Of a stretch of DNA of 64,000 nucleotides, positions 50,059 to 59,875 are shown in pieces (within the stretch, counting starts at the first letter, position 1; every line of letters starts with the position of its first letter). Both the position numbers and the translations under genes were made by a program. The notes below the pieces were generated by a model, which did not search any database, was not told the origin of the DNA, and saw only the letters and a program-made list of their open reading frames with translations. Origin of the DNA: Sneathiella limimaris (GTDB taxonomy: Bacteria; Pseudomonadota; Alphaproteobacteria; Sneathiellales; Sneathiellaceae); the NCBI RefSeq assembly GCF_012932565.1, contig NZ_JABBYJ010000001.1:1116001-1180000 (forward strand). Direction: 5' to 3'.

Positions 50059-50240
50059 TTTTAGCTCCAGATTAGGAATGAATTATCTGCTGGGAATGCC
50101 GAAGGGGCAGTGAAATCAACCGCAGACAATCTATCATCCACTTTTTTGCTGTCCAGTTACAAAAATCACAACCCATTTGTTAAGTTTGTGTTAATATCTC
50201 TCCCAGACTTGGTTTGATCTAGTGTAGCTAATTGATTTGT

Positions 50241-50957
50241 ATGTATTCGTTTGACAGTCCCAGCCCTCGCTATCGGCAGCTACTTGACTACTATCGTGTG
50301 ATGCACTCAGACGGTGTATGGCGGCGAAAGGATGGGGACGTTGTTAAATTTACGCCGCTGGAGACATTCAGTGGGCGAGGCGTTTTCAAACACGCAAAAA
50401 CAATCCGAAAATTATCACGAGCGACTGAGGCTGAAACTCTTCTGGATTTTGGAAGTGGTAAAGGGCGCCAATATACGGATGAGGTTTTCCAGAATGGGCA
50501 ATTGGTGGCGGATAATCTTTGTGATTATTGGCAATTGAAGCAGGTCACCTGTTATGACCCTGCCCTAAATGATCAGGACCAGGCCTTATCCAAAACTTAT
50601 GACGGCGTTATTGCAACCAATGTACTGGATCTCATCCCCGAAGAAGACCTCTACTGGGTGACTGAAAGTCTGTTTCAGGCAGCAGATAAGTTTGTTTTTT
50701 GTAATGTACTGGATTATTCGTCCCAGACTTATTTGCCAAGTGGTGAAAATGCCCGGGTTACCCGCCGTTCCAGTATTTGGTGGCGCGGTATGTTTGCAGC
50801 CGCCAATGCTAAAAAACCACATGTGAAATACTGTATTGCCTATGGCAGTCAGGGGCGTGATCGGGACGGAAAAGTTATTCGCAAAACGGGTTATCTCCAT
50901 AATTGTCAGGACCTTCGCCTCTCCTCTGAGGCTCAACTTTCACCGGCCCAAGACTGA
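50241..50957 (+). CDS. SAM-dependent methyltransferase-like protein
   Basis: 238 residues from ATG 50241; TTG at 50232 is an alternative. The motif ETLLDFGSGKGRQYTDEVF at about residue 63 is a class I methyltransferase SAM-binding loop (E-x-x-x-D-x-G-x-G), followed by VTCYDPALND (acidic loop) and YDGVIATNVLDLIPEEDLYWV. The C-terminal WWRGMFAAANAKKPHVKYCIAYG does not match a family I know. Substrate unknown. It may represent a little-studied methyltransferase family. Confidence 0.72.
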   Translation: MYSFDSPSPRYRQLLDYYRVMHSDGVWRRKDGDVVKFTPLETFSGRGVFKHAKTIRKLSRATEAETLLDFGSGKGRQYTDEVFQNGQLVADNLCDYWQLKQVTCYDPALNDQDQALSKTYDGVIATNVLDLIPEEDLYWVTESLFQAADKFVFCNVLDYSSQTYLPSGENARVTRRSSIWWRGMFAAANAKKPHVKYCIAYGSQGRDRDGKVIRKTGYLHNCQDLRLSSEAQLSPAQD

Positions 50958-51043
50958 TCTTTTAAGACATTTCCTGATCAACATGCTTTGAGTGTTTCTA
51001 AAACTCAGGTACAGTTTCCTCAAAATAATAAAAGGAAACGCTC

Positions 51044-52408
51044 ATGTCTGTTGGGGAGAGATCGCTCAATCCGTTCAACCAGTTTCTTGCGCGCTCGCCG
51101 ATCTTCTATGGTTGGATTGTGGTGGCAATCGTCTTTATTACCATGGGAATTGGGGTCAACGTCCGAACCGCTTTTTCCCTCCTGTATCCAGCAATCCTTA
51201 ATGAATTTGGTTGGGATAGGGCAACGACGGCAGCTGCGTTCACCGTGGGTTTCATATTCGCAGGATTGATTTCCCCGGTTCTGGGTCGGTTGATGGACAG
51301 CGTCGACAGTCGCTATCTGATTTCCGGATCTGCTCTTTGTGTCAGTTTGGGAATGGTTCTGGCGACTTACGCGAGCCAACCCTGGCATATCTATGCGACG
51401 CTTGGCTTGTTGGTTGTCGGGGCGGGGATCATGATGACTTACGTCGGTCATTCCATGTTCTTGCCAACCTGGTTTGAAAAGCGACGGGGTCTTGCCGTTG
51501 GGATTGCTTTTTCAGGGGTTGGGATTGGTTCCATTATCCTGATGCCCGTTATTCAAAGCATGATCAATGAGGAGGGGTGGCGTTATGCCTGTTGGTTTAT
51601 GGCAATCCTTTTGATGGTAATTGTCCTCCCTCTTAATCTGGTTTTTCAGCGGCGAAACCCGGCAACCCTTGGGCTTAAGCCTGATGGCGTAACGGTTGTG
51701 ACAGAAACCAATGATCCAGCTGCCGCCGCTGCGCCCGATATCGATCCGATTGTTGATCATCAATGGGCGGCGACTGACTGGTCTTTGCCTCGGGCCTTGA
51801 AAACAAAAGAGTTCTGGTGGATGAGCCTTGCTGCCAGCAGTGCCCTTTATGTTTGGTATGCGGTACAGGTTCACCAAACCAAGTACCTGATAGAGATCGG
51901 GATATCTGAACTGGACGCTTCCTTTGCCCTTGGCTTTGTTGGATTTGCGGGCGTAATTGGCCAAATTTACCTTGGGCACTTATCGGATCGTATCGGTCGT
52001 GAATGGGTTTGGAGCATTTCCGTTGGCGGTTTCACCCTGTGTTACATCTGTCTTCTGGTGTTAGAATTCTCACCCAGCCACTTCATGATGTATCTCATGG
52101 TGATCGCACAAGGAGGCCTGGGTTATGCGATGGCTGCCGTTTTTGGGGCGATGCCAGCCGATTTGTTTCAGGGACGGCGATACGGGGCCATTTTTGGCGT
52201 GTTCAGCATGATCTCACTGCTCGGGGGAGGTGTTGGCCCATGGATTACAGGATATCTTTATGACGTAACAGGGAACTATCGGGCGGGGTTTGCATTGGCT
52301 ATAGTGGTTTGCCTGACGTCTTGTTTGGCTGTTTGGATGACGGCTCCTCGCAAGCGTCGACTGGTTGCGGGCCAAGCCGAAAAACGGGCAAAGCGTAAGA
52401 GTGCTTAA
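51044..52408 (+). CDS. MFS transporter, monocarboxylate/oxalate-formate antiporter-like
   Basis: 454 residues, twelve segments. SPIFYGWIVVAIVFITMGIGVNVRTAFSLLYPAI and LGRLMDSVDSRYLISGSALCVSLGM, GHSMFLPTWFEKRRGLAVGIAFSGVGIG and LSDRIGREWVWSI resemble the OFA/MCT (monocarboxylate) branch. It probably imports an organic acid. A SDR gene lies 12 bases downstream and likely shares its transcript. Confidence 0.86.
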   Translation: MSVGERSLNPFNQFLARSPIFYGWIVVAIVFITMGIGVNVRTAFSLLYPAILNEFGWDRATTAAAFTVGFIFAGLISPVLGRLMDSVDSRYLISGSALCVSLGMVLATYASQPWHIYATLGLLVVGAGIMMTYVGHSMFLPTWFEKRRGLAVGIAFSGVGIGSIILMPVIQSMINEEGWRYACWFMAILLMVIVLPLNLVFQRRNPATLGLKPDGVTVVTETNDPAAAAAPDIDPIVDHQWAATDWSLPRALKTKEFWWMSLAASSALYVWYAVQVHQTKYLIEIGISELDASFALGFVGFAGVIGQIYLGHLSDRIGREWVWSISVGGFTLCYICLLVLEFSPSHFMMYLMVIAQGGLGYAMAAVFGAMPADLFQGRRYGAIFGVFSMISLLGGGVGPWITGYLYDVTGNYRAGFALAIVVCLTSCLAVWMTAPRKRRLVAGQAEKRAKRKSA

Positions 52409-52420
52409 AAGGAGATGGAA

Positions 52421-53170
52421 GTGAGTAAAGTTTCAGTTGTTACCGGCGCTGGATCCGGTATTGGCCGTGCCGTCGCTTTGGAATTGCTGGCGGCTGGATA
52501 CACAGTCTATCTGGCAGGTCGAACCCTGTCACGATTGGATGAAACTGTTCGTCTGGCAGGCGACACGTCAGGCCGTGCAATTGCAGTTGGTGTTGATGTT
52601 GCCGATCCGGTCAGCGTTACTGAGCTTTTTCAAAAGGTGCGTGAAAAGTCGGGGCGGCTGGATCTTCTGTTTAACAATGCCGGTATTGGCGCCTCACCAG
52701 TTCCGTGTGACGAACTTTCCATCGACTCCTGGGTAAATGTGGTCAACACCAACCTGAACGGATCTTATTTCTGTGCGCGGGAAGCTTTCTCGATCATGCG
52801 TCACCAGGATCCTCAGGGCGGACGGATTATCAATAATGGCTCGATTTCGGCTCATGTACCACGCCCATATAGCGCTCCCTATACGTCTACAAAGCACGCC
52901 ATTACAGGGCTGACGAAGTCCCTGTCGTTGGATGGGCGGGCCTTTAACATCGCTTGCGGCCAGATCGATATTGGAAATGCGGCCACAGATATGACTGAGG
53001 TGATGCAAAAAGGCGTTCCCCAAGCCAATCTAGAGGTCAAGCCCGAGCCCGTTATGGACGTGAGCAATGTCGCATCTGCCGTTCTTTATATGGATAGTTT
53101 ACCTCTTGATGCCAACGTACAGTTCATGACTGTGATGGCAACGGCAATGCCTTATATCGGCAGAGGTTGA
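52421..53170 (+). CDS. Short-chain dehydrogenase/reductase
   Basis: 249 residues from the GTG at 52421, which has AGGAG 6 bases upstream; the ATG at 52415 overlaps that site. [18 protein letters not shown] binds NAD(P), [10 protein letters not shown] is the core, and [16 protein letters not shown] is the YxxxK catalytic unit with Ser in NGSISAHVP. It follows the carboxylate-type MFS gene and converges with a TetR gene, suggesting oxidation/reduction of a substrate taken up by the transporter. Substrate unknown. Confidence 0.88.
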
Positions 53171-53782
53171 TCAGTCGCCAAGAATTGTTGCCAGATAGGC
53201 AATTGTCATCTTTGGCATCTCTTCCAAAAGCCTATCAGCTTCCTCTTTTGTGGGAAGTTCATGGGCCGCGCGGGACAAGGATGATGTCAGGGTGACGATC
53301 ACACGAACAATGTTGCGGGCTTCTGCAGGTGAGAAGCCCCGTTCGGTGAGCAGGCCATAATTTGCAAAAAACTCGACCATTTTGTTGGTGGAGCGGGAAT
53401 TCATTTGATCCCATTCTTTGGTCCAGGAAAGAGCCCGACTGAGGCGCTGGTAAAGAATATCTTCGCTATTTATTCGGATAAACGCTTGTTGAACAGCTTT
53501 CACAATATGGCGCCAGTGTGCATGAGAGCTGATTTCCGCATATAGCTCCTGCAATTTTTGGTCCTGTTCATTTACAAGTTGTTCAGCAACCGCCAGTAAA
53601 ACATCATTTTTATCTTCAAAATACTGATATACAGATCCCACAGGAACGCCAGCAGCCTTGGCGATAGAGCTTGTCGTAATATTGGAGATTTCGGCTGTTG
53701 TCGCTAGCTCTCGAGTTGCGGAAATTATTTTTTGCACCCGTTGTCTGGAGCGGGCTTGGGTGGGCTGTTTGCGGTTGTTCAT
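53171..53782 (-). CDS. TetR family regulator
   Basis: 203 residues. Helix-turn-helix IISATRELATTAEISNITTSSIAKAAGVPVGSVYQYFEDKND is at the N-terminus after a Gln/Arg-rich start. It is divergent from the beta-helix/cytochrome pair and convergent with the SDR gene. Its upstream spacer holds a triple ACTTTT/AAAAGT element (53804 to 53828), a candidate binding site shared with the beta-helix promoter. Confidence 0.88.
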   Translation of the reverse strand: MNNRKQPTQARSRQRVQKIISATRELATTAEISNITTSSIAKAAGVPVGSVYQYFEDKNDVLLAVAEQLVNEQDQKLQELYAEISSHAHWRHIVKAVQQAFIRINSEDILYQRLSRALSWTKEWDQMNSRSTNKMVEFFANYGLLTERGFSPAEARNIVRVIVTLTSSLSRAAHELPTKEEADRLLEEMPKMTIAYLATILGD

Positions 53783-53803
53783 ATTTAATCTATACAGCTT
53801 AAT

Positions 53804-53828
53804 ACTTTTTTTAAAAGTGAATACTTTT
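53804..53828. promoter_or_regulatory. Alternating ACTTTT / AAAAGT half-sites
   Basis: ACTTTT (53804 to 53809), AAAAGT (53813 to 53818) and ACTTTT (53823 to 53828) alternate in orientation with spacers of 3 and 4 bases, and AATACTTTT is a 19-bp-spaced direct repeat. This fits overlapping operators for the divergent TetR gene. Confidence 0.45.
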
Positions 53829-53920
53829 CACATTTTGTCTTGACGATAACTCATAAATCGAAAAGACTAATATGTCCATTATTATTTGGGAATACAGCTA
53901 ATAAATAGGGAAGAAAACCT

Positions 53921-55237
53921 ATGCAATCTATCAGGGGGAAGATGCCCGCTACCTTTTTGAGGGTGCAGCGGGGTATGCTGGGAATTATAGCTACAGCTTT
54001 AATCATTTTGTCGGGACCGGTTCTGGCAGACGATGTCATTCGGGTATCGCCGAGCGAAAATGCACAGGAAGAAATTCAGGAGGCGCTCATTCTGGCAGAG
54101 CCAGGTCAGACAATTGAGCTGGCAGCCGGTTTCTATAAGTTAACCGATGGATTATCCCTCGATGTTGCAAATGTGACAGTGAAGGGCGCGGGGATGGATA
54201 AAACCATTCTCTCTTTCAAGGGACAGAAAGGCGGATCAGAAGGGCTGCTGGTTACCTCAGACCAGGTGGTGCTGAGAGATTTTGCTGTTGAGGATTCAAA
54301 AGGTGACGCCGTCAAAGCAAAAGGTGTGGACGGGATCGCCATGATCAATATCCGCACTGAATGGACGGGTGGACCCAAATCTACAAACGGTGCGTATGGG
54401 CTTTATCCAGTTCAGTCCAAAAATGTTTTTATTTATGGATGTGTAGCAATTGGAGCCTCCGACGCTGGGATATATGTCGGACAAAGCGAAGATATAATTG
54501 TCACCAAAAGTCGCGGCGAATTTAATGTGGCTGGGCTTGAGATCGAAAATAGTTACCGCGCTGATGTGTTTGATAATGTCATGACCCGTAACACAGGGGG
54601 ACTGCTGGTTTTTGATTTACCAAATCTGCCCAAACAGGGTGGCCACAATGTTCGGTTTTTCAGAAATAAGTCCTTTGACAATGATACGGATAATTTTGCG
54701 CCAGAAGGAAATATCGTCGGTATCGTGCCGCGCGGAACTGGCATGATTGTCATGGCTAATGAGAATGTGGAGGTTTTTGAGAACGAGTTTTATGGCAACG
54801 ATACTGTGAATATAGTTGTTGCCAGTTATGTGGACGAGTTTGAGGATGAAAACTATCAACCGACTCCTAAAAAAATTCATATCCATCATAACAAATTCGG
54901 AAAATCAGGAATGGATCCAGACCCCGGTCAATTCGGAACCATTTTGCGGGAAACGGTCGGTACTCCGGTACCAGATGTCGTGTGGGACGGAGTTCTCCCT
55001 CTCATGGATTATCTATTCTTTGGGCAGGCCGAAGAAGACAGTCTTGCACTTCATGACAACACGCATCTGGATGGGGTGAAGCCTTATGGGAATGCCAATA
55101 TGATCATGCATGTGGTGGCCCCAATTTTCCATTCTCCGGATTTTGATATGGCGCCATATGCCAAATCCTATCCGTCTTTGCCCGCGGTTGACGTCACCAT
55201 TCGCGGACGACCTGCCATGGAACTGGTTGCTCAATGA
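53921..55237 (+). CDS. Exported right-handed beta-helix protein, first gene of a conserved pair
   Basis: 438 residues. The N-terminus has a hydrophobic stretch GMLGIIATALIILSGPVLA with a probable cleavage site before DDVIRV. Repeated short strands with Asn/Asp/Gly turns follow (for example VTVKGAGMDKTILSFKGQKG, QVVLRDFAVEDSKGDAVKAKG, IIVTKSRGEFNVAGLEIENS), the look of parallel beta-helix repeats. This and the next gene match my recollection of TIGR03805/TIGR03806, a two-gene exported pair of unknown function. The stop overlaps the cytochrome start by 4 bases. Confidence 0.84.
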   Translation: MQSIRGKMPATFLRVQRGMLGIIATALIILSGPVLADDVIRVSPSENAQEEIQEALILAEPGQTIELAAGFYKLTDGLSLDVANVTVKGAGMDKTILSFKGQKGGSEGLLVTSDQVVLRDFAVEDSKGDAVKAKGVDGIAMINIRTEWTGGPKSTNGAYGLYPVQSKNVFIYGCVAIGASDAGIYVGQSEDIIVTKSRGEFNVAGLEIENSYRADVFDNVMTRNTGGLLVFDLPNLPKQGGHNVRFFRNKSFDNDTDNFAPEGNIVGIVPRGTGMIVMANENVEVFENEFYGNDTVNIVVASYVDEFEDENYQPTPKKIHIHHNKFGKSGMDPDPGQFGTILRETVGTPVPDVVWDGVLPLMDYLFFGQAEEDSLALHDNTHLDGVKPYGNANMIMHVVAPIFHSPDFDMAPYAKSYPSLPAVDVTIRGRPAMELVAQ

Positions 55238-56298
55238 AGGGTATCCGCTTTTGGTTGCTGTTGTTCGCAGTAAGTGTGTTGGGGGGTGCGTCTCAGTCGG
55301 TTTGGGCTATTGATCAGAACAAGTTACTGGCGACCAAGCCGGCTCGCACACTCTCGGAATATGGCTTATTCCAAGATGCCGGAGCCAGAAATCAGGCTGA
55401 AGGCCTGGTTCTATATGAATTGAATAATCCCCTTTTCACGGATTACGCCCTGAAAATCCGCTATCTTTATATCCCGAAGGAAAGTGGTCCTGCTACTTAT
55501 CAGGAGGATGGCGTGTTGGAATTTCCAGTGGGGACCGTCCTTGTCAAAACCTTTGCCTATCCCGCCAGCTTTGAACAGCCGGACGCAGATATTCGCTACA
55601 TTGAAACGCGTCTGTTGATCCACAAGAGAGATGGGTGGAAAGCCTATCCTTATGTGTGGAATGAAGAGCAGACCGAAGCCCGTCTTAAGGTTGCTGGAAA
55701 GCGGCTTGAGATTCCAGTGGTCTGGGCAGATGGAAAATCCGACATTATTAATTATGCGGTTCCCAACATGAACCAATGCAAGGGTTGTCATGTAAACGCG
55801 GACAAGGCTTTTACACCAATTGGGCCAAAGGTGCGTAACCTTAACCGACAGGCAAAGGGGAAATCCGAAAATCAATTGGAACTCCTCAGGCAGGCCGGTT
55901 ATTTGAAAGGCGGGCCTGAAAATCTGGAGGAAAGCCCTCGGGTTCCCGAACCCTTTAATCCTGATGACGGGAATTTGCAGGCACGGGCGCGGGCATATCT
56001 TGATGGGAACTGTGCGCATTGTCATTCGCCGGGCCATCCTGCAGATACCAGTGGTCTTTATTTAAACTATGAGGAAAATCGTGAAGTTCATTGGGGCGTC
56101 AATAAGCCCCCCGTTGCAGCTGGCCGAGGAGCAGGCGGATTGCTGGTGGATATCCATCCTGGTGCGCCTGAAAAATCAATTTTGCTGTTTCGGATGGATA
56201 GCACGGATCCTGGGATCATGATGCCGGAGCTTGGAAGGTCTACAATTGATCAAGAAGGCGTGGAGTTAATCCGAAAATTTATTGCGGAAATGAATTAG
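55234..56298 (+). CDS. Exported diheme c-type cytochrome, partner of the beta-helix protein (SO2930/HNE_0200-like)
   Basis: 354 residues. Signal peptide about residues 1 to 25 (KGIRFWLLLFAVSVLGGASQSVWA). Two heme-binding CxxCH motifs: NQCKGCHVNA near residue 186 and GNCAHCHSPGH near residue 260. The segment LSEYGLFQDAGARNQAEGLVLYELNNPLF and the C-terminal PGIMMPELGRSTIDQEGVELI are family-like. ATGA coupling to the beta-helix gene suggests a stable complex in the periplasm or at the outer surface. Function undetermined; electron transfer to a substrate held by the beta-helix is one idea. Confidence 0.85.
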   Translation: MKGIRFWLLLFAVSVLGGASQSVWAIDQNKLLATKPARTLSEYGLFQDAGARNQAEGLVLYELNNPLFTDYALKIRYLYIPKESGPATYQEDGVLEFPVGTVLVKTFAYPASFEQPDADIRYIETRLLIHKRDGWKAYPYVWNEEQTEARLKVAGKRLEIPVVWADGKSDIINYAVPNMNQCKGCHVNADKAFTPIGPKVRNLNRQAKGKSENQLELLRQAGYLKGGPENLEESPRVPEPFNPDDGNLQARARAYLDGNCAHCHSPGHPADTSGLYLNYEENREVHWGVNKPPVAAGRGAGGLLVDIHPGAPEKSILLFRMDSTDPGIMMPELGRSTIDQEGVELIRKFIAEMN

Positions 56299-56318
56299 GC
56301 CCGGAAATCCGGGCCTAA
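56295..56318 (+). terminator. Hairpin overlapping the diheme cytochrome stop codon
   Basis: TAGGCCCGG (56296 to 56304) pairs with CCGGGCCTA (56309 to 56317). The stem is strong but there is no T-run, so termination would be weak or factor-assisted. Confidence 0.5.
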
Positions 56319-56340
56319 ATGTATCTGAGTTTTTCGGGGA

Positions 56341-56571
56341 TCAGAAATATGTCTTGATCTCATCCAATAGCGCCAGACGCTGCCGGCGAAGCTGCTTCTC
56401 GAACCCCTCATCAACGGGTTCGACATTAGTCTCATGCCGATGAATTTCCCGGTTCAGTTTGTGGTAATCCTCAGTCAATTTCGCAAAATGCTGGTCTGTC
56501 TTGTTGAGTTCCTGGATTTTTTCTTTTGCTTCTGGAAACTCTTCGGCCAGTTCGTGCGGTACGTGTGTCAT
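56341..56571 (-). CDS. YdcH/DUF465 family small helical protein
   Basis: 76 residues from the ATG at 56571 (MTHVPHELAEEFPEAKEKI); an ATG four codons earlier is possible. HELAEEFPEAKEKIQELN, DYHKLNREIHRHE and LRRQRLALLDEIKTYF is the DUF465 pattern of two long helices. Such proteins are common small cytosolic proteins of unknown function. Confidence 0.87.
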   Translation of the reverse strand: MTHVPHELAEEFPEAKEKIQELNKTDQHFAKLTEDYHKLNREIHRHETNVEPVDEGFEKQLRRQRLALLDEIKTYF

Positions 56572-56714
56572 GTTATTCACCATCCATATTTAGAATTCGA
56601 CACCCGCATATCACTTCAACTCGCAGCCTCCAGCATTGATTTGCCGCAATGGAGGATCTGATTTCTCATTTTTTGGAACGGAAAATTCGATCGGTTGCCT
56701 CGATTTGGAAATCG

Positions 56715-57647
56715 CTATTCGTGCGTACCACCTTGAAACTTGCCTTTTTTGACAAATTCATCTCCCGGAGCCTTACTCGATTTCAGTTCTCTGTGTGAAA
56801 TGTAGGTCGTTGAGGCGACGACAATTGCCCCGCCGAGCAGAACGAAGTGATCAACTTCTTCTCCAAACAAAACATAGCCAACAATGATTGCCCAGATTAG
56901 CTGCAAGAACCCAAGTGGCTGGGTCACTGTTAAGGGGGCCGCTTCAATAGCGCGTGTCATGGCATAGTGACCGACTGTTGCAAAGAAAGCGGTCAGGAAC
57001 AGCCAGAATAACTCTTCGATTGACGGGGTTTGCCATTGGTAAATGGCACCGGGCAACAAGGCTAGGGTGCATCCGATTGAGAGGAAACTCACAATGACCA
57101 CTGAACGCTCTGTCTCTGTAAGCTTTTTCGCCAGAATAAAGGAGATGGCAAAAAGCGGGGTGGCAGAAAGCTGCGCAAGTTGACCCAGGTTAATATCCTG
57201 AAATCCTGGGCGAAGGATAACCAGTGTTCCTATAAAGCCAAAAACAATTCCCATGATGCGCCGAGCCCTCATTTTCTCACCGAGGAAAAGGGCAGCTCCG
57301 ATGGCGACAAAAATTGGGGAGGCGTATCCAATGGCTGTGACTTCTGCAACCGGAATACGGGCCATGGCATAGAACCACAACATAACCCCAACCGCATGAA
57401 CAATAGCGCGAGCCGAATAGAGTTGAGCGGTTCTTAAGCTCATTTTAAACGGCCAGTACCGAATGATCACTGGGATGGTCATGATAACCGCAAATAAATA
57501 GCGGATAAAGGCAGCTTGGATGCTCGGGATGTTGGAGCCGAGATATCGGATGACACTTGTCATGGCGACAAAGAGGAGGGTCGCTAGGATCATCCACAAG
57601 ACGCCTTGCAACGTTCTGTTGCTCTGGAGTGCTGCTGGAATAGGCAC
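56715..57647 (-). CDS. EamA/DMT-family transporter
   Basis: 310 residues with ten membrane segments in two EamA repeats (LQGVLWMILATLLFVAMTSVIRYLG and the second beginning LAQLSATPLFAISFILAKKLTE). The C-terminal cytosolic tail is charged. The family moves amino acids, nucleotides or drugs. No partner genes. Confidence 0.87.
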   Translation of the reverse strand: MPIPAALQSNRTLQGVLWMILATLLFVAMTSVIRYLGSNIPSIQAAFIRYLFAVIMTIPVIIRYWPFKMSLRTAQLYSARAIVHAVGVMLWFYAMARIPVAEVTAIGYASPIFVAIGAALFLGEKMRARRIMGIVFGFIGTLVILRPGFQDINLGQLAQLSATPLFAISFILAKKLTETERSVVIVSFLSIGCTLALLPGAIYQWQTPSIEELFWLFLTAFFATVGHYAMTRAIEAAPLTVTQPLGFLQLIWAIIVGYVLFGEEVDHFVLLGGAIVVASTTYISHRELKSSKAPGDEFVKKGKFQGGTHE

Positions 57648-57716
57648 AGGGTTTCCTTATTCTTATTATTGAGACAATGTTCCCTGAAAAATCGCCGTCT
57701 GTCTAGTCCGTTCGTT

Positions 57717-58739
57717 TTAAATCCACCAAATTGCGTATTGGCGTTCACAGAAGCCGGGCAGGTTTTGAATTTCAATCTCTGCGCCAGAACTGGTTCTGAT
57801 AATCCCATCGAAATGGCCAAATAGCTGGTGAAAATCGAAGGCCGTTTGGATCTTATCGTTCATTGCCGCGTACTTGCCTTCAGCCGTAAATGTAAGCCGG
57901 GATCCTTCTTCTGATGTGATCAACCAGGGCTTTTCCAGGTCATCTGGATCATATGTAAAAGCAAAGAGGCCGACCTCATGGCTTTTGCCATCAATCCAGA
58001 TCCTGTTTTCACTCCACCCGGTTTCGTTGACCCCATTCGAGACATTGAGCCCTATTAGGTTTCCTGTGGTATCCACACCGGTAATACAGGCCCAGTTCCA
58101 AAAGGTATCAGGCCGCAGAAACCCGGCAGTGAAATCATGATGCGCAGTCAGCGACTGAGACGATAAATCAATATGATTTCCCTGAAAGGTTAGCTCCCCT
58201 TGGGCATGGATGCCGGCCACTTTCTGACAGTAGGTCCAGCCGTTCGGTCCTGTTGGGGTCGTCAGGCGCAAGGTTTCAAACTGATCTTCGGTTTCACTAA
58301 AACTCAAGCGCAGGGACAGCTCATCTCCCGCATCAACCGTTAGCGACTTGCTCATGCTATCCTTGTTCGCGGTGAAGGTGACTGAAAATCCTGGCCTTGA
58401 GAGGGAGGAAATTCCGTCATCTGGGTCGAGGGTGATTTTACCTTCCGCTGGGTCCGTCAGGCGCAGCCCCTTTTTAAGAAGGCTCCCGTCTTTGCGATCA
58501 AACAGATAAAAGAAGGCGGTTTTTTCATTTCCGACAAGCGTGAGAGAGCACCCCCCGATATATGCCTTGCTGGTGAAGCCGATAAAATGAAAATGAACAA
58601 AGCGCCGATGACGTTCTTCTACCGCCAGAAGACGCCGAAATGGATCGCGAAGCGGGTAGTCCTGGTAGTTAATTTCCCCTGCTGGTTTTTTCAAAATGCC
58701 AAAGGGAATCTCACCCGCAGAATTGACCAGTTTCCCCAT
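57717..58739 (-). CDS. DUF2804 family protein
   Basis: 340 residues. The start LVNSAGEIPFGILKKPAGEINYQDYPLRDPFRR and the middle LTAHHDFTAGFLRPDTFWNWACITG with WIDGKSHEVGLFAFTYDPDDLEKPW are typical of DUF2804, a predicted all-beta enzyme-like fold. No signal peptide. Function unknown. It is divergent from phnD, and the spacer carries the Pho box. Confidence 0.8.
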   Translation of the reverse strand: MGKLVNSAGEIPFGILKKPAGEINYQDYPLRDPFRRLLAVEERHRRFVHFHFIGFTSKAYIGGCSLTLVGNEKTAFFYLFDRKDGSLLKKGLRLTDPAEGKITLDPDDGISSLSRPGFSVTFTANKDSMSKSLTVDAGDELSLRLSFSETEDQFETLRLTTPTGPNGWTYCQKVAGIHAQGELTFQGNHIDLSSQSLTAHHDFTAGFLRPDTFWNWACITGVDTTGNLIGLNVSNGVNETGWSENRIWIDGKSHEVGLFAFTYDPDDLEKPWLITSEEGSRLTFTAEGKYAAMNDKIQTAFDFHQLFGHFDGIIRTSSGAEIEIQNLPGFCERQYAIWWI

Positions 58740-58835
58740 TTTTTTCTTCCCTTTTATTTTTGATCTTTACGAATAGCAGAAAATATAAGGCCTTGGCGAT
58801 ATTAGACATAAAAAGCTTGTCGTGCCCGTTTCTCT

Positions 58836-58853
58836 GTGTCATGAATTTGTCAT
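58836..58853 (+). promoter_or_regulatory. Pho box upstream of phnD
   Basis: GTGTCAT-GAAT-TTGTCAT is two 7-bp direct half-sites, each 6 of 7 to the PhoB consensus CTGTCAT, with the standard 4-bp spacer. A TAAAAC (-10-like) lies 10 bases downstream, the normal PhoB-activated geometry. Phosphate starvation is the likely inducer. Confidence 0.85.
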
Positions 58854-58900
58854 TAAAATGAAATAAAACTGAAACATTTCGAAACTTGGGAGGACGAAAT

Positions 58901-59875
58901 ATGATCAGGAAAATTCTGATGGGTGCTGCTGGCGCCTTGATTGCATCCACCTTTATGAGCGGTACAGCAGCAGCGGAAGATTGCCCGCGTGGTACGCTGG
59001 ATGCGCGCTTCTGTGATCGTGATGGTGACCTGCTTGCGGATACACCAACCGATCCATCCAAGCAACTGGATCCGGATACGCTTGTGTTTGCCTACACGCC
59101 CGTTGAAGACCCTGCTGTCTACAAAGAAGCTTGGAGTGATTTCCTGGACCATATGGAAAAAGTGACCGGTAAAAGTGTCGTCTTCTTCCCCGTTCAGAGT
59201 AACGCTGCCCAGATTGAAGCAATGCGCTCTGGTCGGTTGCACATCGCGGGCTTCAATACAGGTTCAAACCCTCTGGCTGTGAACTGTGCGGGCTTTAATC
59301 CGTTCACCATCATGGCTTCCAAGGATGGTAACTTCGGGTATGAGATGGAAATCATCACCTATCCTGGAAGTGGCATTGATAAAGTTGAAGATATCAAAGG
59401 CCAGCAACTTGCCTTTACGTCTCCAACATCAAACTCTGGCTTTAAGGCGCCATCTGCGATCCTGAAAGCGGATTTCAACATGATCCCAGAGCGGGATTTC
59501 GAACCTGCTTTCTCTGGTAAGCATGACAACTCCATCTTGGGTGTTGCCAACAAGGACTACAAAGCCGCTTCTATTGCCAACTCTGTTTTAAGCCGGATGA
59601 TTAAGCGTGATGTGATCAAGCCAGATCAGGTAAAATCCATCTACAAATCCCAAACATTCCCAACAACTGGTTTTGGTGTTGTCTACAACCTGAAGCCAGA
59701 ACTGAAAGCGAAAATCGAAGAAGCTTTCTTCACTTTTGAGTGGGAAGGTACATCCTTGCAGAAGGAATTCGAGAAATCCAACGAAGGTCAATTCCTGAAA
59801 ATGACCTACAAGGAGTTCTGGGATGTGATCCGGAAAATTGACGCTGCAAATGGTGTGAAATACACCTGTAAATAA
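58901..59875 (+). CDS. phnD: Phosphonate/phosphite ABC transporter substrate-binding protein PhnD
   Basis: 324 residues from ATG 58901 with GGGAGGA 6 bases upstream. Signal peptide about residues 1 to 26 (ends AAAED). DPDTLVFAYTPVEDPAVYKEAWSDFLDHMEKVTGK and QSNAAQIEAMRSGRLHIAGFNTG with DIKGQQLAFTSPTSNSGFKAPSAIL are PhnD-type segments. Four cysteines at EDCPRG, RFCDRD, VNCAGF and the C-terminal YTCK could form disulfides. The ligand may be phosphonate, 2-aminoethylphosphonate or phosphite. Confidence 0.9.
   Translation: MIRKILMGAAGALIASTFMSGTAAAEDCPRGTLDARFCDRDGDLLADTPTDPSKQLDPDTLVFAYTPVEDPAVYKEAWSDFLDHMEKVTGKSVVFFPVQSNAAQIEAMRSGRLHIAGFNTGSNPLAVNCAGFNPFTIMASKDGNFGYEMEIITYPGSGIDKVEDIKGQQLAFTSPTSNSGFKAPSAILKADFNMIPERDFEPAFSGKHDNSILGVANKDYKAASIANSVLSRMIKRDVIKPDQVKSIYKSQTFPTTGFGVVYNLKPELKAKIEEAFFTFEWEGTSLQKEFEKSNEGQFLKMTYKEFWDVIRKIDAANGVKYTCK

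Follow-up and report, generated by a model that had tools for sequence, protein, structure and literature searches.

Diheme enzymes of the MauG and MbnH type make or serve protein-derived cofactors in their targets, and MbnH takes part in copper handling. Among beta-helix proteins, NosD belongs to NosDFY, the maturation complex of N2O reductase (PMC11573801). A third relevant system is the gene pair defined by the families TIGR03805 (a right-handed beta-helix) and TIGR03806 (a diheme cytochrome of the SO2930 family); the NCBIfam descriptions returned for both models name no function. In the Shewanella literature, SO_2930 and SO_2931 are listed among outer-membrane or extracellular cytochromes (PMC4837345), SO2931 is called a diheme outer-membrane lipoprotein (PMC5357785) and it is placed in a set of five outer-membrane cytochromes whose functions are in part redundant (PMC12175506). 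The link of SO_2931 to the pair is its locus number, beside that of the namesake SO_2930. Here we describe such a pair in a 64,000-nt stretch of the genome of Sneathiella limimaris (contig NZ_JABBYJ010000001.1, positions 1,116,001–1,180,000 of the forward strand), further referred to as the window. An original prediction made from the sequence of this stretch held that no function is assigned to the pair and offered it as a good candidate for an undescribed system. Indeed, searches with family, locus and product names found no specific function in the accessible parts of the publications; given the SO_2931 literature, the word "undescribed" is too strong.

The pair is interpreted here as an envelope heme oxidoreductase with the substrate site on a NosD-like beta-helix, electrons leaving via the cytochrome and expression controlled by a TetR repressor; we give this reading an even chance. 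Relatives of the two genes are adjacent or fused and often accompanied by a TetR gene, hence the pair very probably acts as one envelope redox unit. At the level of sequence this is based on one gene order, one strand, frequent overlap, some fusions and the cytochrome itself, which starts with a signal-like N-terminus and has two motifs for covalent heme. The features of the locus, in window coordinates, are as follows.

53921–55237, plus strand: beta-helix gene, exported NosD-like right-handed beta-helix (TIGR03805); open reading frame (ORF) of 438 aa, profile matches
55234–56298, plus strand: cytochrome gene, exported diheme c-type cytochrome (TIGR03806, SO2930 family); ORF of 354 aa, profile match, CxxCH motifs
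55234–55237, plus strand: ATGA overlap of 4 nt, the cytochrome start lying inside the beta-helix stop (ORFs and sequence)
54362–54547, plus strand: conserved patch W148–E209 (W148, Y159, Y162, D181, Y185, E207, E209) from the 130-row alignment
55546–55548, plus strand: Lys105 codon in FPVGTVLVK, a segment aligned to P460; Lys in 124/128 rows
55777–55791, plus strand: heme-1 motif CKGCH, residues 182–186; C182, C185 and H186 in 127/128 rows, the other row having a gap
56011–56025, plus strand: heme-2 motif CAHCH, residues 260–264; C260, C263 and H264 in 127/128 rows, the other row having a gap
56221–56223, plus strand: Met330 codon, possible axial ligand of heme 2; Met in 126/128 rows, two gaps
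53171–53782, minus strand: TetR-family repressor gene, divergent from the pair (TetR_N, 42.6 bits)
53817–53831, no strand assigned: candidate TetR operator GTGAATACTTTTCAC (consensus RTGAAWNNNTTTCAY), also G000:C1:1169817
53840–53845, plus strand: −35-like TTGACG behind the candidate operator, read from the sequence

The window beta-helix scored 397.8 bits against TIGR03805 (curated cut-off 141.5) and 48.9 bits against Pfam Beta_helix (cut-off 25.9), and the cytochrome scored 380.7 bits against TIGR03806 (curated cut-off 313.3). By these scores the family names given in the original prediction are right, and so is its description of overlapping genes for an exported beta-helix and an exported CxxCH diheme protein. 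The two c-type heme motifs (predicted attachment) and the beta-helix partner that characterize TIGR03806 are both present. In scores, gene order and the common overlap the window pair is a regular member of the two families, with no difference seen, and since the same order recurs in many genomes, the arrangement is not due to chance. The N-termini of both proteins, inspected by eye, read as Sec signal peptides; neither protein has a lipobox, and both look periplasmic. Elsewhere in the families a crude pattern found lipobox-like motifs in 31/130 beta-helices and 33/128 cytochromes.

The linkage of the two families was analysed in two unselected samples, a class sample of 240 genomes and a phylum sample of 398 genomes, and in a pooled set of 132 loci formed by the window, 51 loci from the samples and 80 named loci; the latter are the best 80 of at least 571 confirmed beta-helix matches and favour the standard pair. 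Weak partial matches (two cytochrome and five beta-helix genomes in the class sample, four cytochrome genomes in the phylum sample) were left aside. In the class sample, TIGR03806 exceeded its cut-off in 10 genomes and TIGR03805 in 12; ten of these 12 were the TIGR03806 genomes, with the two genes at neighbouring positions. Two genomes of the window's own genus in this sample differ, G041 having the pair and G168 having neither family. In the phylum sample, TIGR03806 was above the cut-off in 37 genomes, and a beta-helix was adjacent or fused in 37/37 (all regions were examined). The two families are thus tightly linked, rather than unlinked in most genomes, which the original prediction had named as grounds for abandoning it. 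Nine further phylum-sample genomes fell below the TIGR03806 cut-off: two with a fusion to a beta-helix (G306, G416), three of the GSDH type considered below (G409, G468, G583) and four with weak partial matches.

In the pooled set, 113 of 132 loci have separately called pairs, all of them same-strand, with a gap of at most 30 nt in 108/113 and the ATGA (−4) spacing in 42/113. Single-ORF fusions account for six loci (L063, L064 and L065, all of one genus, together with L096, L097 and L098). In five pairs (L066, L078, L139, L142, L185) the cytochrome had been missed by the gene caller and was recovered with a hidden Markov model (HMM); no cytochrome was found for two beta-helices, L154, where the contig ends, and L147, where the HMM gave none on a contig of 6.5 kb. 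Two loci have a MauG/MbnH-like partner (L061, L062), and four have cytochrome domains without a beta-helix (L099–L102). The divergence of the two proteins is correlated over 114 loci (Pearson 0.78, Spearman 0.64), as measured by a mirror-tree comparison that includes shared species history. The linkage in 37/37 genomes, the fusions in 6/132 loci and this correlation are among the reasons for treating the pair as one unit.

Pair carriers include SAR86, Sneathiella, Kordiimonas, Mesorhizobium, Phenylobacterium, sphingomonads, Planctomycetota and Hydrogenedentota. The closest relatives among the best 80 of at least 571 matches come from Sneathiella glossodoripedis (L106, 75%) and two alphaproteobacterial contigs (L107, 76%; L108, 75%). 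In a quick tree, SAR86 and Woeseiaceae sequences are nested in a branch whose other rows are alphaproteobacterial, a pattern suggestive of gene transfer.

A divergent TetR gene occupies position −1 in 17 loci, 11 of them with the window's TetR cluster and six with a second one. The consensus RTGAAWNNNTTTCAY was found upstream of the beta-helix gene in 13/17 TetR-linked loci as an exact match and in 16/17 when up to one mismatch was allowed, vs 0/111 other loci in both cases. The pattern had been derived from nine of the loci counted; exact matches outside these nine are L067, L073, L120 and L138. A one-strand scan of 128 beta-helix loci (2402 kb) yielded 14 matches, 13 of them upstream of TetR-linked beta-helices. 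In a set of 360 permuted palindromes that included the true one, the latter matched 13 loci, the next two 12 and 11 (the W shifted, the same sites), and then the number dropped to 5. The palindrome is followed by TTGAC in 11/13 exact-match loci; in L108 it is not, and in L055 TTGAC stands in front. A candidate operator beside TetR is therefore conserved between the predicted regulator and its target in a subset of the family to which the window belongs, and the divergent TetR, which had been proposed as a possible regulator, becomes a probable one by the counts of 16/17 vs 0/111. The pattern has four distinct sites in the window genome, about equal to the count for the reversed pattern (two forward and two reverse); with the other three sites uninspected, these numbers gave no sign of a wider TetR regulon.

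The substrate site is placed on the beta-helix because of its conserved residues. In the alignment of 130 members (a Persicobacter relative and L209 were left out), Y159, D181, Y185, E207, E209, N210, N224, N249, N254, N258 and N288 are invariant, and W148 and Y162 are each found in 126/130. Asparagine ladders are common in beta-helices; structure alone would not be expected to require the Tyr/Asp/Glu set. By coil register, Y162/Y185/E207 and G187/E209/F231 would form stacks. The Tyr/Asp/Tyr/Glu/Glu set is kept even in the four members that have no TIGR03806 partner. The TIGR03806-paired group, 126 members in the alignment, has W148 throughout, and these four (L061, L062, L104, L105) lack it; it is kept in L147 and L154, where no cytochrome turned up, and the effects of clade and partner on its distribution appear inseparable in this alignment.

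A profile of 12 NosD proteins was aligned with the beta-helix by hhalign over 199 columns (probability 98.7, E-value 3.8e-16). As a control, 27 single beta-helix proteins from a PF13229 search were compared: 20 NosD proteins scored 40.6–91.5 (mean 64.7) and seven non-NosD beta-helices 20.6–52.6 (mean 34.9), two of the latter, 52.6 and 48.1, lying inside the NosD range. The window protein thus appears nearest to NosD on average among the beta-helices compared; since the two score ranges overlap, it is labelled NosD-like rather than a NosD paralogue. A shared ancestor within the fold is likely; that the window protein derives directly from NosD is unproven. The two proteins are collinear beta-helices sharing Asp at position 181 and Phe/Tyr at position 185, whereas E207, E209 and F231 of the window protein align with His, Met and Met that are invariant in 12/12 NosD proteins and presumably bind copper. 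Instead of the HxM motif of NosD, ExE was found in 11/11 beta-helices of the joint alignment, and the TIGR04247 score of the window protein is 32.7 bits vs the cut-off of 300. The context also differs, the window beta-helix having a heme partner and NosD, an ATP-binding cassette (ABC) transporter; there are no nos genes among the nine window genes scanned (50232–59875). The original prediction regarded the beta-helix as a scaffold presenting a redox enzyme. The fold is as predicted; the role of a mere scaffold is disfavoured, and a substrate- or metal-binding subunit appears likelier, because the protein is NosD-like and the Tyr/Asp/Tyr/Glu/Glu set is invariant in 130/130 members, the four partnerless ones included.

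At least 94% of the 128 rows in the cytochrome alignment keep K74, R76, K105, E124, T125, R126, Y140, W142 and the two heme motifs. Heme 2 probably has M330 as a ligand. No comparable methionine follows heme 1, which may have an open site or draw a ligand from the N-terminal domain. Like cytochrome P460 (PF16694), this domain has the segment R..Y......FP.GT.L.K, with a CxxCH at its end; it differs in that a second cytochrome domain follows it. Comparison with a profile of 19 P460 proteins by hhalign gave a probability of 54 in the local mode and 74 in the global one. Of 68 control profiles, run in the local mode only, the best had a probability of 51.8 across 11 columns and a raw score of 35.4 vs 32.0 for P460, the next being at 4.6; the resemblance to P460 is suggestive only. 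The window cytochrome has no PF03150 (CCP_MauG) match at E-value 0.1, and thus differs from MauG and MbnH, while a search of PDB profiles yielded only short c-type matches. Second cytochrome copies are located beside the pair in L140 (10960–14287), L168 (11173–13502), L063 (7623–11566) and L064 (7594–12755); Lys105 is missing in both L140 copies and in the second L168 copy.

In the proposed mechanism the beta-helix would hold a substrate (or a substrate–metal complex) on the W148/Y159/Y162/D181/Y185/E207/E209 face. Electrons would pass from it to heme 1 of the cytochrome, a protein whose N-terminal domain weakly resembles P460, then to heme 2 (His/Met330) and further via soluble cytochrome c to an oxidase. 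The predicted location is the periplasm in the window; elsewhere one or both proteins often start with a lipoprotein-like motif. The neighbouring TetR would probably keep the genes off at its palindromic operator until the substrate or a product relieves the repression.

Two variant arrangements argue for a redox unit. Divergent TIGR03805 beta-helices of three loci from one family (L061:7508–10341, L062:7475–10245, L209:3309–6056) and of Ruegeria pomeroyi (L105:9677–13284, SPO_RS20610) have a CxxCH of their own near the C-terminus, which in the two proteins scanned matches PF13442 below the cut-off. A PF03150 diheme protein is encoded upstream of the beta-helix, directly in L061 and L209 and with one gene between in L105; the upstream diheme enzyme of L062 was assigned by clustering with that of L061. 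The best NCBIfam matches of the two variant enzymes scanned were the MbnH-family and MauG models, under both cut-offs. As in MauG and MbnH systems (TIGR03791, TIGR04039, PF03150), a diheme c-type protein is encoded here beside an exported protein. The four variant beta-helices cluster in a quick tree (SH-aLRT 94, long branches). G612, from the same family as L061, L062 and L209, has the standard beta-helix and cytochrome.

In the other variant a GSDH domain (PF07995), a dehydrogenase domain of the pyrroloquinoline quinone (PQQ) type, takes the place that the beta-helix has in the fusions, and a TIGR03806-like cytochrome domain with two CxxCH motifs follows it. Four large proteins are of this type (L099:6869–10459, L100:7383–13499, L101:6380–13489, L102:6720–13193), all under the TIGR03806 cut-off. 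Most conserved cytochrome positions are kept in L099 and L100; K74, R76 and R126 are lost in L101 and L102. Extra domains were observed as well, PSD/PSCyt in L101 and L102 and ThuA in L100. These fusions raised the idea of PQQ as a general cofactor of the beta-helix, which is unlikely: among 75 genomes PqqC exceeded its cut-off in only 3/46 pair carriers, compared with 1/3 GSDH-type and 9/26 other genomes. The window genome (G000) has none, and the match in G590 is below the cut-off; carriers might still take PQQ up from outside.

Several observations weigh against the proposed oxidoreductase. The beta-helix has no evident cofactor able to pass electrons to heme, the arrangement of the patch as a single pocket is deduced from coil register only, and the PF16694 score of the window cytochrome, 16.9 bits, is below the cut-off of 27. 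The Persicobacter relative, which is outside the 130 rows and for which no family-model score was taken, lacks E207 and E209. A member on a Hymenobacter plasmid, just over the cut-off (144.1 vs 141.5 bits), keeps the patch and has no cytochrome among its listed neighbours, for which the gene table is incomplete; for the L147 beta-helix the HMM likewise found no cytochrome on its short contig. In PMC3584217 a TIGR03805 prediction is listed in a Burkholderia exopolysaccharide cluster. Finally, a common substrate pathway was sought among the neighbouring genes, and no single substrate was indicated.

The ligand-type swap at aligned positions of a NosD-like helix, together with the MbnH-like partner in variant loci, could instead point to metal handling or metal-site assembly, with the beta-helix binding a metal as NosD does, here via the hard ligands Glu, Glu, Asp and Tyr, and the cytochrome setting its redox state for transfer to a client or for uptake. 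A cluster of TonB-dependent receptors within six genes of 16/132 loci (one, L100, without a beta-helix) also suits this explanation, as do the five TonB receptors among 122 immediate neighbours vs at most two among 108 controls. However, the listed neighbour clusters show no recurrent metalloenzyme client, the ABC ATPases of one cluster, found within six genes in 17 loci, vary in place and strand, the NosD relation is only partly separated from other beta-helices, and the GSDH fusions suit catalysis better. We consider metal handling unlikely. Even less likely is a carbohydrate-active beta-helix (a hydrolase, epimerase or binding module) that would present a glycan for the cytochrome to oxidise or to relieve of electrons. 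Beta-helix lyases and epimerases use Lys, Arg or His, whereas none of these is invariant among the 130 aligned beta-helices (the best are K132 in 122/130 and R245 in 112/130), and no glycoside-related family is among the 25 commonest families of immediate neighbours. Exposed Tyr/Trp and Asp/Glu would nevertheless fit sugars. The PDB profile search with the beta-helix gave weak matches to phage preneck appendages, PL6 alginate lyase, pectinesterase and C5-epimerases, and the Hymenobacter member is near GH127 and GH43 genes; the Burkholderia listing belongs here too.

A surface electron conduit, connecting the cell with an outside acceptor or donor of electrons in the way suggested for Shewanella outer-membrane cytochromes, is the least probable of these alternatives. 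It draws on the listing of SO_2930 and SO_2931 cited above, on the lipobox-like motifs and on published reports: cathodic current fell by 95.7% in a strain without SO2931 and other outer-membrane cytochromes vs 88.2% in one lacking mtrC and omcA alone (PMC5829830), SO2931 was up 1.20 and was speculatively tied to the reduction of Fe/Mn oxides (PMC5955497), and it was named, also speculatively, as a possible disulfide reductant (PMC10986466). Against the conduit, the multi-gene deletion does not isolate SO_2931, itself tied to the family by number only, the cytochrome has two hemes only and the window proteins lack a lipobox. Many pair-carrying organisms are aerobes, which also speaks against it.

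The neighbourhood was surveyed in 63 loci chosen to differ, with 122 proteins of 90–1100 aa at positions −1 and +1 and 108 controls at position 6. The immediate neighbours included TetR (9), DUF2147 (6), TonB receptors (5), GST (5) and alpha/beta hydrolases (5). In the controls the first four were outside the 25 listed families (lowest count 2), and alpha/beta hydrolases numbered two; hence TetR, DUF2147, TonB-dependent receptors and GST are commoner beside the pair than at position 6, in small counts. Genes of P450, flavin adenine dinucleotide (FAD) dehydrogenase, FadL-like (by eye), fatty-acid hydroxylase and acyl-CoA functions stand beside the pair in some lineages only. Nothing in the analysis as a whole singles out polymers or sterols.

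The window, L060 (with one extra call), L106, L107 and L108 share one order of genes ahead of TetR, made up of a gene of the 241-aa type without a firm family, an MFS gene and an SDR gene. The 241-aa gene of the window (50232–50954) has no Pfam match at E-value 0.001 and only a weak one, to Methyltransf_23, at 0.024. On the other side, a DUF2804 protein gene (57717–58739) adjoins a gene, with its start at 58886, for an ABC substrate-binding protein of the phosphonate type. A DUF2147-cluster gene lies within two genes of the pair in SAR86 and sphingomonads (L117:12760–13251 and 15 other loci; the Pfam match was checked in L117 and six neighbour-set proteins), and an Asp/Glu-racemase-cluster gene within six genes (L082:12438–13136 and 16 other loci), co-oriented in 17/17. 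In L056 and L057, from 1.4-Mb genomes, the pair is beside P450 genes, an FAD dehydrogenase, a GFA-like gene and a TonB receptor. On a Novosphingobium plasmid, TonB-receptor genes, two pieces around an IS5 transposase, precede the beta-helix and cytochrome genes.

Within the oxidoreductase interpretation a bolder proposal can be made, though we think it about as unlikely as metal handling: the beta-helix could itself be the catalytic subunit, and the pair would then represent a new class of heme-linked oxidoreductases, in which the Tyr/Asp/Tyr/Glu/Glu set replaces the His/Met face of NosD and holds a hard metal or a protein-derived cofactor (oxidised Tyr or W148) made or served by the diheme partner. 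We know of no redox enzyme with a beta-helix as the substrate-binding subunit. The TetR gene with its defined candidate operator provides a direct route to the substrate via the inducer, and the comparison with NosD names the beta-helix residues for substitution.

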